Below, one piece after another: positions 5,624 to 58,740 of a stretch of DNA of 64,000 nt (position 1 is its first letter; every line of letters starts with the position of its first letter). The position numbers were made by a program, and so were the translations under genes. Source of the stretch: Pseudomonas syringae (GTDB lineage: Bacteria; Pseudomonadota; Gammaproteobacteria; Pseudomonadales; Pseudomonadaceae); NCBI RefSeq assembly GCF_021606685.1, contig NZ_WKCB01000020.1, forward strand, positions 1 through 64,000, given 5' to 3'. The notes beneath the pieces were generated by a model. That model worked only from the letters and a program-made list of their open reading frames with translations. It was not told the DNA's origin and made no database searches.

Positions 5624-7189
5624 ATGCGCAACAACCAGCCCGTTACACAGCGCGAGATTTCCCTCGCGCCGCAACAAAAACTCATCTCGGCGACGGATGT
5701 TCGAGGTGTGATCACGTATTGCAACGACGCCTTTGTGGATATCAGCGGTTTTGAACGCGCCGACCTGATCGGCGCCCCCCAGAACATCGTGCGTCACCCC
5801 GATGTGCCCCCCGCAGTATTTGCGCATATGTGGAGTGCGCTCAAACAGGGTCAGCCCTGGATGGGCATCGTCAAGAACCGCTCGAAAAACGGCGACCATT
5901 ATTGGGTCAACGCCTACGTCACGCCGATCTTCGAAGGCAACAGCGTGGTGGGTTTCGAGTCGGTGCGGGTCAAGCCCACGGCCGATGAGATTCGGCGCGC
6001 CCAAGCTCTGTACCAGCGCATCAGCCGGGGCAAACCGGCGGTGCCGCACCAGGACAACTGGCTGCCCGCCGCCCTGAGCTGCGTGCCGTACCTGGCCACT
6101 GCGGTCGCCGGTTGCGTCGCCGGGTTGTTTCTCAGCGCACCGCTGGCCGTCGCGGTGGCCGTGGCGGTCGCTGTGCCGGTGGGCGTGCTCTGCTCACGCA
6201 CTCGCCAGGGCAGCACCTTGCGGCTGTTGGCAGGTGTCGAACCTTCGACCTCGGACGCCCTGATCGCGCAGATGTACAGTGACGCACGCGGCCCGCAGGC
6301 ACGCCTGGAAACCGCGTTTCTCAGCCAGACTGCACGCCTGAAAACCTGCCTCACGCGCCTGCAGGACAGTGCCGAGCAACTCAGCGCCCTCGCCGGGCAA
6401 TCCGATCAGTTGGCCACCGCCAGCGCCAAGGGCCTGGACCGCCAGCGCGTGGAAACCGAACAGGTCTCGGCCGCCGTGAATCAGATGGCCGCGACCACCC
6501 AGGAAGTCGCCAGCCACGTGCAACGCACCGCCGATGCCACGCAGCAAGCCAACGCCCTGACCGGGCGTGGCCGCGAAGTGGCGCGCGATACCCGTGAAGC
6601 CATCGAGCGCCTTTCTGCCGTGGTCGGCGAAACCGGCGCCACCGTGGCGCAACTGGCCCGCGACAGCGATGAAATCGGCAGCGTGGTGGATGTGATCAAA
6701 GGCATTGCCGATCAAACCAACCTGCTGGCGCTCAACGCCGCGATTGAAGCGGCACGTGCCGGTGAACAAGGCCGCGGCTTTGCCGTGGTGGCCGACGAAG
6801 TGCGCCAACTGGCCCAGCGCACCTCGCAATCCACCACCCAGATCCACGCCCTGATCACCCAACTGCAAACGTCCTCCAACAACGCCGTGAGCAGCATGCA
6901 GCACGGCCAACGCCAGGCCCAGGAAGGCGTGGCGTGGGTGCTGGAGGCGGACCAGGCGCTGGTGGGCATCAGTGAAGCGGTGTCGCACATCACCGACATG
7001 ACCACCCAGATCGCCGCCGCTACCGAAGAACAAAGCGCGGTCGCCGAGGAGATCAGCCGCAATATCACCACCATCGCTGAACTGGCCGACCAGACCTCGG
7101 TACAAGCCCATCAATCCACGGACCTGAGCAAGGAGCTGACCAACACAGCGTCCACTCAATACGCCTTGGTTGAACGCTTCAACCGCTGA
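5624..7189 (+). CDS. aer: Aer-like redox/energy taxis receptor (PAS + MCP signalling domain)
   Basis: 521 aa. Residues 1-120 form a PAS domain very close to E. coli Aer, including [14 protein letters not shown], the Trp at position 70 and [15 protein letters not shown], so FAD binding is expected. A hydrophobic segment at about 150-190 makes a membrane hairpin; there is no periplasmic sensor domain. The rest is a methyl-accepting signalling domain with the conserved tip [18 protein letters not shown] and [10 protein letters not shown]. It should signal redox or electron-transport state to CheA/CheW. The ATG at 5624 follows a good GGGAG site. The gene is divergent from the OsmC-YcaO gene and ends in a strong hairpin. 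Confidence 0.88.
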
Positions 7190-7198
7190 TCCCCCTAA

Positions 7199-7227
7199 GG
7201 CGCCCGTCCTCAAGCAAGACGGGCGCC
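7199..7227 (+). terminator. Hairpin after the Aer-like gene
   Basis: Perfect 10-bp arms GGCGCCCGTC and GACGGGCGCC around a 9-nt loop, 9 bp after the stop. The downstream T tract is weak (GCAGTTTTAT), so termination is plausible rather than certain. It may serve both convergent genes. Confidence 0.6.
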
Positions 7228-7283
7228 GTCCGCAGTTTTATCCGACGCCTCAGCAACCCACGCTGGCGGTGAGAAGGCACGGC

Positions 7284-8672
7284 TCAAGGCTGCTTGCGAT
7301 ACATCCCTGTCAGGTAATCGGGAAAGTCCGGTGCGGAGTTGTGGTTGATAACCGCAAAATTCTTCACCAACTGAATGTGGTACGGCCCTGCGCGGCGGCC
7401 CACGTCGGGCTCACGCACGATAATCAGGTTATCGGTTTCCATCGGCACAGTGAGGTGGGTGCTCACGATGACTTTGTCGGTGCCGGTGTCTTTGAGCGTG
7501 ATAGTGAACTCCGCGAGTTCCCTGCCCTGGGCGTCGCGCTCCGGGAGGATTTTCAGGTCCAGGTCGCCGTCGCGGTCGAGGAAGTCGTCACGCATCTGGT
7601 AGTGGCCGGCGCGCTGGTCGCGGGCAACATTGTCGATTTTTTCGTAGTCCGGTTCGCGGTATTCATCGCGCAACTGGAAGGCCATTTCGCGGGTAGGTCC
7701 CTTGACGGCGCTGAGCCAGGTGCCAGTGTTGTCCTGCTTAATGTGCCACACGCCGGTTTGATGGCCGTCGTCGCTATATTCGTGCAGGTACAGGAAGGAC
7801 TCGTCAGCGTACTCGCCCCGATTGCCCACCAGCTTGATCGGTTTGCCGCTGCCGCTCTTGGTGTAGCGCAACTCGCCGATCATCACAGCGCCCTGCTGCT
7901 GGTACCAGATTTCCACCGGGATCTTGCCGTTTAGCGTGCCGACCAGCCGCTGCGGGTCTTCATTGACCGGGCCTTCGAGCCTGGGCGTTTCCAGCCATTG
8001 GCCGTCCTTCCACTCGCCGGTGGTGCGCAGCATGTAACCGGCGGGCATGCTGTTGTTGGCGTCGCCATCGGTCGCCGGCACCTGTTCCTGGGTGTATGAA
8101 CTGAGTTGCACCAGTTCGCCGTCGCGTAGTTGCCAGATGCCCGAACGCGTCCAGCAGCAACCCCGGTCAACTTGCGTATGGAGCGTGCCGTCCTTGGGAT
8201 TGACCATGAACATCCCGCCGAAGTTTTCGTTGGCCAGGTCGGTCAGGGGGCGGTTGAGCACCCACTGGGTTTTCTGCGGGTCTTGCAGGTATACGTCGTA
8301 GTTGAACTGGAAGTCCTTGTCGGCGCCGTTGTCGTTGCGAATGGCCAGGTCCTGACGGCCATCGCCATTGATGTCGGCGAAGTACAGCAGGCCGTACTCC
8401 CCCACTAGATGTCCCTCGTCGGTTTTACCGTTGCGATCCAGCGGTACATTGCCCGCCGGCGTCTCCAGTTGCTGAAGGATCTCAAGCGTGTTTTTGTCGC
8501 GCACGGTGATCAGTGCGCGCACCAGTTCGCGCAAGTCCTCGGGCACTTGTGGGAACAGCACCTCAACCAGGTACTTGCCACTGGGGTCGTCGACCGAGAA
8601 CGAACGGGGTTCGGCCATGGCCGGGGCGGCAAGCGCCGTAGAGAGCAGCACAGCGCTGACAAGCGAACGCAT
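7284..8672 (-). CDS. Secreted hypothetical protein with an FG-GAP/VCBS-like motif
   Basis: 462 aa with a clear signal peptide (LVSAVLLSTALAAPAMA, cleavage expected near residue 20). The calcium-type loop DINGDGRQDLAI, followed by a Trp- and Tyr-rich beta sequence and a CCW motif, resembles the XAC2610/FG-GAP-like periplasmic proteins. No catalytic motif was recognised. It is convergent with the Aer-like gene and divergent from the hydrolase-fold gene at 8793, which leaves about 120 bp for two promoters. Function unknown; a periplasmic or cell-surface role is likely. Confidence 0.7.
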   Translation of the reverse strand: MRSLVSAVLLSTALAAPAMAEPRSFSVDDPSGKYLVEVLFPQVPEDLRELVRALITVRDKNTLEILQQLETPAGNVPLDRNGKTDEGHLVGEYGLLYFADINGDGRQDLAIRNDNGADKDFQFNYDVYLQDPQKTQWVLNRPLTDLANENFGGMFMVNPKDGTLHTQVDRGCCWTRSGIWQLRDGELVQLSSYTQEQVPATDGDANNSMPAGYMLRTTGEWKDGQWLETPRLEGPVNEDPQRLVGTLNGKIPVEIWYQQQGAVMIGELRYTKSGSGKPIKLVGNRGEYADESFLYLHEYSDDGHQTGVWHIKQDNTGTWLSAVKGPTREMAFQLRDEYREPDYEKIDNVARDQRAGHYQMRDDFLDRDGDLDLKILPERDAQGRELAEFTITLKDTGTDKVIVSTHLTVPMETDNLIIVREPDVGRRAGPYHIQLVKNFAVINHNSAPDFPDYLTGMYRKQP

Positions 8673-8792
8673 TCAAAGCATCCTTGCTGAAATTCGGGGG
8701 CGGCAGTGTAGCCTGTGTTTTCACACAAATCGCTGTTTGCCGGCACACCTTGGCTGATATGTTGCGTGCCTCAAGCAGCCAAGGGACGAGCC

Positions 8793-9368
8793 ATGGAACC
8801 GCTAGCCAGCAACGCCGCACTGGTGGTCATCGACATGCAACAGGGCATGCACCAGCCAACACTTGGGCGGCGCAACAACCCCGACGCCGAAGTGCATATG
8901 CAGCGCCTGCTGAGCGCCTGGCGGCAAGCCTCGCGGCCTATCGTGCATGTGCGGCATATTTCCCGCACGCCGGGTTCGGTTTTCTGGCCGGGGCAACCCG
9001 GTTGCGAGTTCCAGGCCGCACTGCAACCGCTGCCCCATGAACATGTGGTGGAAAAAAACGTCCCGGATGCCTTCACCCATACCGGGCTGGAGCGCTGGCT
9101 GCACGCCCGCGCGATCCGGCAGGTGGTGATCGTTGGGGTGATCACCAACAACTCGGTCGAGGCCACGGCGCGGTCGGGCGGCAACCTGGGCTTTGAAGTG
9201 ATCGTGGCGGCGGACGCCTGCTACACGTTCGACCAGACCGACCTGTCGGGACGCCTCTGGCCGGCGGAGGATGTGCATGCACTGTCGCTGAGCAACCTGG
9301 CAATGGACTATGCCACGGTAGTGGAAACGGACGAGATCCTCTCCGGCGGCGTCATACCAAAGGCTTGA
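8793..9368 (+). CDS. Isochorismatase/cysteine-hydrolase-fold protein with Ser in place of the catalytic Cys
   Basis: 191 aa, the usual family length. The first motif VVIDMQQG gives Asp14 and EKNVPDAF gives Lys89. The third motif, normally G-V-x-T-x-x-C-V, reads GVITNNSVEATA, so position 121 is Ser. Cysteine hydrolases of this fold (nicotinamidase, carbamoylhydrolase) need that Cys, whereas isochorismatases such as PhzD act without it, so amidase activity is doubtful. The ATG at 8793 follows AAGGGACGAGCC. The 3' end overlaps the convergent NUDIX gene by 17 bp. Confidence 0.8.
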   Translation: MEPLASNAALVVIDMQQGMHQPTLGRRNNPDAEVHMQRLLSAWRQASRPIVHVRHISRTPGSVFWPGQPGCEFQAALQPLPHEHVVEKNVPDAFTHTGLERWLHARAIRQVVIVGVITNNSVEATARSGGNLGFEVIVAADACYTFDQTDLSGRLWPAEDVHALSLSNLAMDYATVVETDEILSGGVIPKA

Positions 9369-54088: not shown

Positions 54089-55231
54089 ATGAATCACACA
54101 TTACACAAAATGCTGATTTGCGCTGCATTCCTGGGGGCCGGCACCTGCATGGCGGCCACTGACCTGCGCAAGGTCGTGGACGCCAGCGTAGCGCCACTGA
54201 TCCAGCAGCAAGACATCCCCGGTCTGGCAATCGCGGTGGTGAACAAGGGCAAAGTGCAATACTTTAACTACGGTGTTGCGTCCATTGAAACCCAACAGCC
54301 GGTGACTCAAGACACGCTGTTTGAAATAGGCTCGGTCAGTAAAACCTTTACCGCCACGCTCGGCGGCTACGCCCAGGCCACTGGCAAGCTCAAACTCTCG
54401 GACCCGGCCAGCCAGCACCTATCTGCCCTGGCCGGCAGCGCCTTTGACCACATCAGCCTACTGCAACTGGCGACCTACACCGCGGGCGGCCTGCCCCTGC
54501 AGTTTCCGCCTGCCGCCGACACTGCTGACGGCATGCTCGGCTATTTCCAGCACTGGAAACCCACCTACGCACCGGGTGAACAGCGCCTGTATTCCAACCC
54601 CAGCATCGGCTTGTTCGGCTACCTCGCAGCGCAAAGCCTGGGCCAGCCGTTCGACGTCGCACTGCAGAGAACCCTGCTTCCCAAACTCGGCCTGACCAAT
54701 ACCCACCTCAGCGTGCCCGCGGACAAATCCAGCCAGTACGCCCAAGGTTACGATAAGCAGCAAAAGCCGGTACGCGTCAGCCCCGGCGCACTGGACAGCG
54801 AAGCCTACGGCATCAAGACCAGCACTCAGGACCTGGCTCGCTACGTGATTGCAAACATGCACCCGCAAAGCCTGGAACAGCCGCTGCAACAGGCTATCGC
54901 TGCCACCCACGCCGGCTACTACAGCGTAAACGCAATGACCCAGGGCCTGGGCTGGGAGCGCTACCCCTACCCGATCAAGCTGCAGACGCTGATTGACGGC
55001 AACTCCACACCGATGGCGATGCAACCCCACACAGTCCATTGGCTGGCTGCAGCGCAGCCGCAACCGGCCAACGTGCTGTACAACAAAACCGGCTCAACCG
55101 GCGGCTTTGGTGCCTACGTGGTCTACGTACCGAGCAAGGATATGGGTGTGGTGATCTTGGCCAACAAAAACTATCCGAATGCCGAACGCGTCAAGTTAGC
55201 TCATACGATTTTCAGTTTTCTGAACCCGTAA
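54089..55231 (+). CDS. ampC: Class C beta-lactamase
   Basis: 380 aa with signal peptide (MLICAAFLGAGTCMAA). The three class C motifs are intact: SVSK with catalytic Ser (GSVSKTFTATLGG), YSN (RLYSNPSIG) and KTG (YNKTGSTGGFG). It hydrolyses cephalosporins in the periplasm. Start ATG at 54089 with GGGAAG upstream. The last 20 bp overlap the convergent polyprenyl synthase gene. Confidence 0.95.
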   Translation: MNHTLHKMLICAAFLGAGTCMAATDLRKVVDASVAPLIQQQDIPGLAIAVVNKGKVQYFNYGVASIETQQPVTQDTLFEIGSVSKTFTATLGGYAQATGKLKLSDPASQHLSALAGSAFDHISLLQLATYTAGGLPLQFPPAADTADGMLGYFQHWKPTYAPGEQRLYSNPSIGLFGYLAAQSLGQPFDVALQRTLLPKLGLTNTHLSVPADKSSQYAQGYDKQQKPVRVSPGALDSEAYGIKTSTQDLARYVIANMHPQSLEQPLQQAIAATHAGYYSVNAMTQGLGWERYPYPIKLQTLIDGNSTPMAMQPHTVHWLAAAQPQPANVLYNKTGSTGGFGAYVVYVPSKDMGVVILANKNYPNAERVKLAHTIFSFLNP

Positions 55232-56204
55232 TAGGTTGATCGCCGGGGCAGTACGTTGCCATGTGTAACGGACGCCCCACTGCAAGGCACTGCTGATAGT
55301 AGTTATCGGCAGCGCCCGGCTGAAATCGGATGTCACTCAACACCCCGGCCAAAGGGTGAATGTTGTGCTCCGGGTGTTTATATCTGATCGCCTCCAAGTG
55401 CCCCTCGATTGTCGCGTAAGTAGCCTCGATCATTGCCAACGCGGTATCCAACACGCCTGCGCGACCGTAGGCTTTGATTATCTTTTTTTTCTGGGCGTTG
55501 GTTCTTTTGGCTTTTACCAAAGGCTGACCTGCAAGGATCATCAACAATGACTTTGGACCGCCTTCAAGGTCCGGAGCAAAGCCTTTCTTTTCGAAATGCG
55601 GAATATGGTTAACATCGCAATAATCATTCACATAACGGTAATAGACGCCCAACTCGAGAAGCAGGCTTTTGAGTGCCAGATAAGTCTCTTCGTCTACCGG
55701 GCTCAAGCACTGACACATCTCCAACAAGCAGATAAAAAAACAACTCGTATTGGCCTGCGCGATTAATTCATATTCCGTCAGCGTGGGCAGCGTATTGCCA
55801 TTGCTGAATGCCAGGTCCAGGTGTTGCCCGACATGCAGGTACTCAAGACAGGTCAGTCCGGCCTGCAGAATGCCGAGATTTGAAAACCCGGCGAGACGCT
55901 GCAAACCTGCGATATAGCCGTACATCCCGGAATTCAGCGCAACACCGACACCGTATTTAACCCACACCGAAGGCTGGCCGCGACGCATAGCGTCACCGTC
56001 GAGGATATCGTCATGTATCAAGGACGATGTATGCATCAACTCTATGGGTTCGCAGAGCTGCCGGGTCCAATCGGCGGGCAACTTATAGATCGCTGACAGT
56101 GCCCCGGCAATCGCCGTGCGCACATTCTTGCCGCCCGCGTTTTGCTGATAATCAAATGGCGCACGCCATTCGCTGGCACCGAATGGCATAGTGGTAGTGG
56201 TCAT
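55212..56204 (-). CDS. Polyprenyl diphosphate synthase-like protein (GGPP-synthase type)
   Basis: 330 aa from the ATG at 56204 (AGGG site). Early motifs are complete: GGKNVRTAI, the first Asp-rich motif HDDILDGDAMRRGQP (Asp65, Asp66, Asp69) and GQHLDLAF. Small residues (Ser-Ser) at -4 and -5 before the motif argue against FPP and for C20 or longer. Later motifs are altered: the Lys of the KT pair is Asn152 (AQANTS), the Gln-Asp of the second motif reads R-Y-V-N-D-Y-C-D (Asn193). The overall pattern recalls eukaryotic-type GGPP synthases. It is divergent from a terpene synthase gene and both are A+T-richer than their neighbours, suggesting acquisition. Activity needs testing. Confidence 0.8.
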   Translation of the reverse strand: MTTTTMPFGASEWRAPFDYQQNAGGKNVRTAIAGALSAIYKLPADWTRQLCEPIELMHTSSLIHDDILDGDAMRRGQPSVWVKYGVGVALNSGMYGYIAGLQRLAGFSNLGILQAGLTCLEYLHVGQHLDLAFSNGNTLPTLTEYELIAQANTSCFFICLLEMCQCLSPVDEETYLALKSLLLELGVYYRYVNDYCDVNHIPHFEKKGFAPDLEGGPKSLLMILAGQPLVKAKRTNAQKKKIIKAYGRAGVLDTALAMIEATYATIEGHLEAIRYKHPEHNIHPLAGVLSDIRFQPGAADNYYQQCLAVGRPLHMATYCPGDQPITGSEN

Positions 56205-56526
56205 TGTTGTGCCCTGCGAACAAGCAAGCGAACCGGGCTGGCGGGCGGGTTTTACCTGCCGTGGCAGCACCTGGATTAACGAGCAGTAAAAGGCCGAAAA
56301 CTGCAACGGACACTGCGTGATCTGACTGCCTTCCTTAACCTTAGCCAACGTGTAAAAAACACCTGATCGGTTTTTATACTTTTTGATTTAAAGCTCAATC
56401 GCAAAACAGTATGACTGCCATCAATTTACGCCATGCCGATCCAACTAAGCTCCCATCGTTAACGCGTCATCAATCCTTTGAAATGGACCGCTTTACCGTC
56501 CGAAATAACAGCTCAGGAATGCGGTT
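56205..56526. promoter_or_regulatory. A+T-rich divergent promoter region of the terpene genes
   Basis: 322 bp between the two start codons. The centre (about 56350-56405) is strongly A+T-rich; TATACT at 56375 could be a -10 for the terpene synthase and TATAAA on the other strand for the polyprenyl synthase. No clear operator was found. A 62-codon open frame at 56411 is not supported as a gene. Confidence 0.4.
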
Positions 56527-57495
56527 ATGGAAGACTTTGACCTTCCTCCCAGGCTGGCGCAAGCGGACTACCCGCTCAGCCCTTTCGCTGCAGAGGTGAA
56601 CCAGCACACACGCCAGTGGCTAAAGCGTATGGGGCTGGAAACCACCTCACGCCACACTCACCAGCGGGATATTTACAACCCCGGCTTGTATGCCGCCTAC
56701 ATGTGGGCCGATGCCCCGCTGGACAAACTTTCGATTCTGTCAAATCTGCTCGGATGGTTTAGCTGCATCGATGACCAGGCGGACGAAGACTGTCAGAGCC
56801 CGCAAGCATTGGAGCAATTGCTTCGCGAGGTCTTCATGCGTGCATTTACCTGTGCCAATACCCCCCACGGACCGCTTGCTTCAGGGCTCAACGATATTGT
56901 TCAGCATGCTGCACCCCTGGCGTCGCCATTCTGGCTGGAACGGACGGGCGATCAATATGCAAGTTATATCGCCCCCTGTGTCACGGCATTAATGCACCGA
57001 ACCCATCACACACAACCCGGCATAGAAGGCTTCGATAACCTTTGGCGTAACGCAGGTGGGTTTCAGGTGTGTCTGGAATTCACCTATTGGGCACAGGATA
57101 TCTACCTGCCACCCGCCCTCTATTACAGCAAGCCTTGGCTTGAGCTATGCCAGTTGGCGCTCAACTTGTTGAAGGCGGTAAATGACTTACTGTCGTTTCG
57201 GATTTTGCAAAACCCGGACGAGGACATCTATAACCTCTTAACCCATTTGCGACACACTCAGGGTTATTCCGCGCATCGCGCTGCTCGGGAGGTGTCACAC
57301 CGCATTGATCAATGGGCCGACACCTTCGTGAAGGCTCAAGCACGCTTACCCGAACGCCTGGCAAGGTATGGCTATGATGAGCGTTCGGTGCAACAGGCGA
57401 TGATCTGTGCGCAGGCCCTGCACAACCAATGGCGCGGTAATATCGCGTGGCACCTGGCAGTGCCACGCTATCGGGAAATTCGCTTCAAGGGCTAA
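56527..57495 (+). CDS. Class I terpene synthase-like protein with altered NSE motif
   Basis: 322 aa, the length of bacterial single-domain terpene cyclases. First metal motif IDDQADED (Asp82, Asp83, Asp86) is intact. The diphosphate-sensor Arg is Arg174 (LWRNAGG), 45 residues before the second motif, and the C-terminal Arg-Tyr pair is Arg314-Tyr315 (VPRYREI). The NSE triad (Asn-Asp...Ser...Glu) is present as Asn219 and Ser223, but the Glu position is Leu227 (NDLLSFRILQ). The Glu normally holds a Mg ion, so catalysis may be changed. It is divergent from the polyprenyl synthase and 45 bp upstream of an MFS exporter gene. Confidence 0.82.
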   Translation: MEDFDLPPRLAQADYPLSPFAAEVNQHTRQWLKRMGLETTSRHTHQRDIYNPGLYAAYMWADAPLDKLSILSNLLGWFSCIDDQADEDCQSPQALEQLLREVFMRAFTCANTPHGPLASGLNDIVQHAAPLASPFWLERTGDQYASYIAPCVTALMHRTHHTQPGIEGFDNLWRNAGGFQVCLEFTYWAQDIYLPPALYYSKPWLELCQLALNLLKAVNDLLSFRILQNPDEDIYNLLTHLRHTQGYSAHRAAREVSHRIDQWADTFVKAQARLPERLARYGYDERSVQQAMICAQALHNQWRGNIAWHLAVPRYREIRFKG

Positions 57496-57540: not shown

Positions 57541-58740
57541 ATGCGCAAGGATTACCTGGCATTTTTTGTTTCGCTGTTCCTGTCACGGCTGGCGGACCAG
57601 ATTCTGTTGTTTATCGTGCCGTTGGTGGTGTTCCAGACCACCCAAAGCGTGGCATGGGCGGGGCTGGCATTTTTTGTCGAGTCGCTGCCACGCTACCTGG
57701 CGTTCCCGGTGTGCGGCGCCTTGTGCGACAAATTCTCGCCGGTGCGCATCCTGCACATCAGCCAGGTGTACCGGGCGTTGGCCTGCGTCGTGGCGGTGGC
57801 GTTGTATGGGGTGTTCGACGGCATTCACTGGCTGGTGATCCTGTCGGCGCTGTGCGGGGTGCTGACCACCCAGGGCATCATGGCCCGCGAAGTGCTCATG
57901 CCGCATGTGTTCGAGCAATACACCTATGCCAGAACGCTCTCCTATTCACAGATCGCCGACCAGAGCGGCCTGGTGCTCGGGCCGCTGGTGGCAGCCTTGT
58001 TGCTGGAGGTGTGGACCTGGCCCTGGGTGGTGCTGGGCGTTGCCGGGCTGTTTGCGCTGGCCGACCTGAGCATGCGGGCCTGGCAGCGGGCCACCAACGC
58101 CCACCTGCACACCCACGCGCAGCCTCGCGATATCTGGCTGCAACCGCTGCGCATCGCGTTCGGGCATATCTTCAGCCTGGTGGAGTTGAAGCGGATTATC
58201 ACGCTGGCAGTCGGCGTGAACCTGATTGTCGGCGTGACGCTGGCCACCTCTGCCGCACTGGTTACCGGCCAGTTTGCGGCGGGCCAGCAGGCATACGCCC
58301 TGCTGCAAGCCGCAGGCGCGGTGGTCACCATCGGGATTCTGTTTTACCTGGCGCGCGCCGCCTTACCCTTGAAAGTGCTGGGCGGGCTGTCGTATTCGAT
58401 GATTGCCGTGGGCGCGCTGATCATGGCGATCGGCCCCAGCCTGTGGGTCTATACCGTTGGCTTCCTGCTAGTCACCGGTTTCGACAAGATGTTCAACGTG
58501 TACCTGCGCAGCACCCGCCAACGGGTGATCCCCGTGCAGGATTTCGGCAAGACCGTCGGCGTGATCACATTACTCAACAACTTGTCACAACCCGTGGCAG
58601 GCCTGCTGATTGCGCTTTTGGCCGCGCCGCTGGGGGTGCAAACGGTGATTCTGCTAGTGGCCGCAATCACCGTGCTGATTGGCGCAGCGGTGGCCTCAGG
58701 CTGGCACGCCACTGTGAAAGCGGAACTCGATATCGGGTGA
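57541..58740 (+). CDS. MFS transporter (TMS/EntS-like exporter)
   Basis: 399 aa with 10-12 membrane helices (FVSLFLSRLADQILLFIVPL at the start, ALPRYLAFPVCGALCDKFS-type helix 2 loop). The sequence fits the MFS_3 drug/siderophore exporter group. It starts 45 bp after the terpene synthase with AGGGAG before the ATG, but its G+C content is high like the host, so it may be an older resident gene. Its 3' end overlaps the convergent miaE by 45 bp. Confidence 0.82.
   Translation: MRKDYLAFFVSLFLSRLADQILLFIVPLVVFQTTQSVAWAGLAFFVESLPRYLAFPVCGALCDKFSPVRILHISQVYRALACVVAVALYGVFDGIHWLVILSALCGVLTTQGIMAREVLMPHVFEQYTYARTLSYSQIADQSGLVLGPLVAALLLEVWTWPWVVLGVAGLFALADLSMRAWQRATNAHLHTHAQPRDIWLQPLRIAFGHIFSLVELKRIITLAVGVNLIVGVTLATSAALVTGQFAAGQQAYALLQAAGAVVTIGILFYLARAALPLKVLGGLSYSMIAVGALIMAIGPSLWVYTVGFLLVTGFDKMFNVYLRSTRQRVIPVQDFGKTVGVITLLNNLSQPVAGLLIALLAAPLGVQTVILLVAAITVLIGAAVASGWHATVKAELDIG

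Follow-up and report, generated by a model that had tools for sequence, protein, structure and literature searches.

A divergent polyprenyl synthase and terpene synthase gene pair beside ampC

We identified two adjoining isoprenoid genes in the window, the 64,000-nucleotide stretch of a Pseudomonas syringae contig that was analysed. The gene order at the locus is ampR (minus strand), ampC (plus), PPS (minus), TS (plus), an MFS gene (plus) and miaE (minus). PPS (55212–56204, minus strand) encodes a trans-polyprenyl (isoprenyl diphosphate) synthase of 330 amino acids, recognized by motifs, by a PDB profile search and by a match to PF00348 (140.6 bits against a gathering threshold of 27; 6.5e-41). 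TS (56527–57495, plus strand) encodes a class I terpene synthase of 322 amino acids with the motifs DDxxDE (residues 82–87) and ND..S (residues 219–223), recognized by an AlphaFold model and by a match to PF19086 (74.5 bits against 23.7; 1.2e-20). The Pfam profiles thus confirm both families of what a first-pass annotation had described as a compact divergent terpene locus. No significant relation between PPS and TS was found when their profiles were compared with each other.

The 3′ ends of PPS and ampC converge and overlap by 20 bp (55212–55231 in the ORF list), as had been annotated. The overlap is peculiar to the window because PPS runs here 22 residues past the usual C-terminus of its relatives and reaches into ampC. 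This extension (55215–55280, minus strand) is missing from the other 13 rows of a 14-row PPS alignment, some of which have one or two extra residues. Where PPS runs in (55215–55231), the last residues of AmpC are IFSFLNP in the window and ILSAMDH-like in relatives. At the other end of PPS, the ATG at 56204 is more likely the start codon than the TTG at 56348, since the relatives begin at about the equivalent place. PPS and TS are separated by an A+T-rich intergenic region of 322 bp (56205–56526; G+C about 0.49), in which a consensus scan found no sigma-70-type promoter, a negative scan being no proof of absence.

The drop in G+C content that had been counted by eye is exact (25/60 at 57181–57240 and 44/60 at 58021–58080). 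The 1-kb G+C content of the window reaches its minimum, about 0.51–0.54 against 0.622 overall, at 55.1–56.5 kb, across PPS and the intergenic gap. Codon-level composition agrees, with a GC3 of 0.605 for PPS and 0.625 for TS against 0.72–0.82 in five neighbouring genes. The G+C content of PPS is, however, low (0.47–0.57) in all 24 carriers of the pair described below. Low G+C is a trait of the family and therefore says little about when PPS arrived here, and a recent acquisition argued from G+C alone was rejected.

The gene pair is a patchily distributed Pseudomonas cassette

TS is present as a single copy in its genome. In a scan of 399 Pseudomonas genomes (one genome per species), 12 others contain a TS with 52–66% identity, and a few contain distant homologues with 22–26% identity. 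One of the latter genomes (G037) carries tandem distant terpene synthase homologues (6889–7863 and about 7975–8910 of locus L031; about 22–23% identity to the window TS), and one match of the genome scan has an internal TGA. A scan of named records gave no match with the single TS protein as query and 16 TS loci with an alignment as query, all in Pseudomonas and partly from the same genomes. Pooling both scans resulted in 24 distinct loci, the window included. A divergent PPS accompanies TS in all 23 other loci, in an arrangement identical to that of the window. This constant pairing shows that the genes are more than chance neighbours.

No TS relatives were found in 368 other genomes of the class (cut-off 1e-25), and no PPS relatives among 397 other genomes sampled across the phylum (cut-off 1e-35). 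PLSDB contained no close match either, the best being 29% identical and from an actinobacterium. Within the genomes scanned, the pair is a compact cassette found only in Pseudomonas, and patchy in that genus. The PPS and TS trees share the deep split and agree in the groups that are well supported, and in both trees the window groups with Pseudomonas kitaguniensis at 100% bootstrap. An interrupted TS, PPS or IDI (see below) frame was observed in one member each of the P. iridis (L062), P. sputi (L057) and P. kitaguniensis (L047) loci, where assembly error and real decay are indistinguishable.

Insertion site and flanking genes

The pair lies directly 3′ of ampC in 11 of the 24 loci, and of the 29 other genomes that come closest in ampC, 4 have PPS adjoining it. 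The same site without the pair was found in five genomes (G306, G352, G350, G360 and G004), supporting the earlier proposal that the pair was inserted beside ampC. The two genomes whose ampC is most similar (about 92%; G306 and G352) have the order ampR, ampC, two-component system, MFS gene and miaE, with the pair absent, and in G305 the pair is located between ampC and the two-component system. A second type of flank, in which ampC is directly followed by a TRAP transporter gene, occurs without the pair in G350 and G360; in G119, G374 and strain EK007-RG4 the pair sits between these two genes. To the left of the pair, G374 (L019) carries a stretch of about 22 bp (ttacatccccagccagtgcggc) that also occurs at the 3′ end of the intact TRAP gene on the right, a direct repeat which fits an insertion event. 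Insertion is therefore supported, and the pair is patchy in the genus (12/399); its low G+C content is no sign of a recent arrival. The two-component system of G306, G352, G305 and G004 is missing in the window between TS (ending at 57495) and the MFS gene (starting at 57541); its response regulator has no better match elsewhere in the window's genome than one of 52%.

The MFS gene, which had been annotated as an exporter belonging to the locus, stays beside miaE in genomes that lack the pair. It is a resident gene, and its role as the cluster's exporter was rejected. Tailoring genes were also considered among the other genes 3′ of TS and rejected: a TRAP transporter, a two-component system and a beta-lactamase-like protein vary by locus. 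Since the genes downstream of TS vary and occupy the same place without the pair, they were taken as host genes.

TS is fused to an isopentenyl-diphosphate isomerase in relatives

Eight of the 24 loci encode TS as an in-frame fusion with a type I isopentenyl-diphosphate isomerase (IDI) at its N-terminus; here the open TS frame extends upstream by about 190–200 codons, which encode the isomerase. The fused IDI scored above the NCBIfam equivalog cut-offs in the genomes and proteins scanned (two named fused proteins and one more). When modelled, the P. trivialis fusion resolves into two well-predicted domains joined by a low-confidence linker, and it matches both Escherichia coli IDI and class I terpene synthases. 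IDI is a separate adjoining frame in strain PS918 and in P. syringae PA-6-8C, is present with a frameshift in P. kitaguniensis, and is present beside a broken TS frame in P. iridis. It is absent from 12 of the 24 loci, the window among them. Both deep clades include fusions, and the well-supported branches require the "absent" state to have changed at least three times. The IDI-less proteins begin differently, with a linker-like stretch in EK007-RG4, MTGLLSGGT in P. lactucae and MSYSLPP in PS655, which fits separate losses. Most likely, the TS of the common ancestor carried an IDI at its N-terminus.

The ancestral IDI domain and its deletion in the window strain had been overlooked in the first-pass annotation. 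In an alignment of the intergenic gaps, the upstream DNA is common to the window and P. kitaguniensis through ATGGAAGAC (56527–56535, plus strand), the first three IDI codons (Met-Glu-Asp) and now the start of TS. P. kitaguniensis continues with 557 bp of frameshifted IDI, between GAC and TTTGACCT, followed by TTTGACCTGCCAGGCAGGCTG, whereas the window continues directly and in frame with TTTGACCTTCCTCCCAGGCTG. The junction, between 56535 and 56536, joins the old IDI start MED to the TS sequence FDLPPRL. To judge from this alignment, the window strain has undergone a clean in-frame deletion of about 190 codons comprising the IDI domain. Because the upstream DNA and ATGGAAGAC are shared, TS of the window begins at the IDI start codon, and it presumably uses the ribosome-binding site of IDI.

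Elsewhere in the genome of the window, neither a type I nor a type II IDI scored above cut-off. The MEP pathway delivers both IPP and DMAPP, as IspH makes both, and the loss of IDI therefore need not stop the pathway. Between the window and P. kitaguniensis, dN/dS was about 0.18–0.28 for TS and about 0.10–0.16 for PPS, varying by method, indicating that both genes are under purifying selection.

Active-site motifs and predicted chain length

The Asp-rich motifs of PPS are DDILD and NDYCD, the first Asp of the second motif being replaced by Asn, and are invariant in 14 rows. In the PDB profile search a fungal sesterterpene synthase, through its prenyltransferase domain, and human GGPP synthase came nearest to PPS among solved structures, and bacterial enzymes ranked behind them. 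No NCBIfam GGPP synthase model reached its cut-off with PPS (e.g., 66.7 of 500), and PPS is therefore called GGPP-synthase-like and not an equivalog member. Its similarities favour a predicted product of C20 or longer.

The AlphaFold model of TS (pLDDT 88.5) has the class I alpha-helical fold and comes closest in the PDB to 1,8-cineole and T-muurolol synthases; the matches also include a bacterial diterpene synthase (9m25). The nearest NCBIfam models, isoafricanol and delta-cadinene synthases, scored far under their cut-offs. TS is predicted to cyclise a prenyl diphosphate. In its aspartate motif (D82-D83-x-x-D86-E87), D82, D86 and E87 are conserved in 23 of 23 rows. N219, D220 and S223 of the NSE motif are invariant, with one residue inserted relative to the solved enzymes. 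The position of the NSE glutamate (228) is occupied by Glu in 14 of the 23 rows, by Gln in the window and by Ala, Ser, Ile or Lys in eight. E232 and D233, nearly or fully invariant, might replace the missing glutamate as a ligand. R174, which we take to be the pyrophosphate sensor arginine because it lies 45 residues ahead of N219, is replaced by Gln in eight rows, although the surrounding WxNAGGFQ stretch is conserved. The chemistry of TS may be unusual or weak, because the NSE glutamate is Gln and the likely sensor arginine varies in relatives.

Proposed pathway and alternative explanations

The reading we favour, and consider reasonably probable, is that PPS and TS form a cassette whose ancestral IDI domain was deleted in the window strain, PPS making a linear diphosphate (likely C20) that is cyclised by TS. 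In the full form of the cassette, IDI would convert IPP to DMAPP, PPS would condense DMAPP with IPP to a linear allylic diphosphate, for which C20 GGPP is the most likely candidate, and TS would ionise and cyclise this product to a terpene, either a hydrocarbon or an alcohol. In the window, the in-frame deletion, with start codon and upstream region kept, would have left a stand-alone TS, and the DMAPP starter would be supplied by the MEP pathway. We put forward more tentatively a wider proposal, namely a family of IDI-TS fusions with a GGPP-synthase-like partner, repeated IDI loss and a new terpene, cyclised without a fixed NSE glutamate or sensor arginine.

The chain length is predicted from similarity alone, and against C20 stands the fact that TS is structurally nearest to mono- and sesquiterpene synthases. 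TS could accordingly act on GPP or FPP, with PPS as a short-chain (C10/C15) synthase, as the 1,8-cineole and T-muurolol synthase structures and the isoafricanol and delta-cadinene models, the latter far below cut-off, would suggest. We consider this unlikely, though deserving of serious attention, since PPS looks like a eukaryotic GGPP or fungal C25 synthase and not like an FPP synthase, the cell already makes FPP, so that a dedicated extra enzyme for it would be hard to account for, and diterpene synthase 9m25 is among the TS matches.

Repeated IDI loss and the few frameshifted members show that parts of the cassette decay. The cassette might be decaying in the window strain as well, with no terpene being made: IDI is gone, the ends of ampC and PPS have merged in a run-on PPS C-terminus, a TS metal ligand is lost through the change of the NSE glutamate to Gln, and members in other loci are frameshifted. 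We regard such decay as improbable, because both frames are full length with dN/dS well below 1, the IDI deletion is in frame with its start retained, and replacement of E228 is shared with the PS655, pharyngis/sputi and PfAR1 lineages, in which the TS frames are open. That IDI was never part of the window's cassette and was gained by some relatives would agree with the 12 of 24 carriers that lack it. This is very hard to reconcile with the frameshifted IDI at the same place in the sister P. kitaguniensis, with the upstream DNA and first nine IDI coding bases shared by the window, and with fused IDI in both deep clades, and we give it hardly any weight.

Under the favoured reading of a PPS/TS cassette that lost its IDI domain, the fusion in relatives would combine the DMAPP-supplying and cyclising steps in one polypeptide, a layout that pathway engineers can test. 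The repeated natural loss of the isomerase provides pairs with and without it for judging what the fusion might be worth.

Comparison with known systems

The cassette is built from known enzyme classes. The IDI-TS fusion is apparently undescribed, as no description of it was found in the literature searched (open-access full text). The first-pass annotation had suggested an undescribed product. No characterised product was found in that literature, yet the family itself has already been listed: a pan-genome paper (eLife 2021;10:e71900, PMC8719888) records under the name "Unknown terpene 1" a terpene synthase of Ps655 that lies next to a polyprenyl synthetase, without a product. P. fluorescens PS655 (L054) carries a member of the cassette family with a TS 52% identical to that of the window; the link between the two entries is made through the strain name. 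The PS655 locus also lacks IDI and, unlike the window, is not beside ampC.

Noncanonical C16/C17 terpene clusters of Pseudomonas (pgr and chlororaphen; JACS 2026, PMC13022886) include some with an IDI gene. These have IDI and DXS as separate genes and require methyltransferases, whereas the PPS/TS pair has no methyltransferase beside it and most loci that have an IDI encode it as a fusion with TS. The best solved match to TS in both fold and sequence is bCinS, the 1,8-cineole synthase of Streptomyces clavuligerus (5nx6/5nx7; TM about 0.83–0.88), which shares about 23% identity and differs in its NSE motif and genomic setting. In fungal chimeric prenyltransferase-terpene synthases such as PbSS (9wyx), a prenyltransferase of the GGPP/GFPP type is linked to a class I terpene synthase, and PPS of the window is most similar to the prenyltransferase domain of PbSS. 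In contrast to PbSS, PPS is here encoded apart from TS by a divergent gene, and where TS is fused in relatives its partner is an N-terminal IDI.
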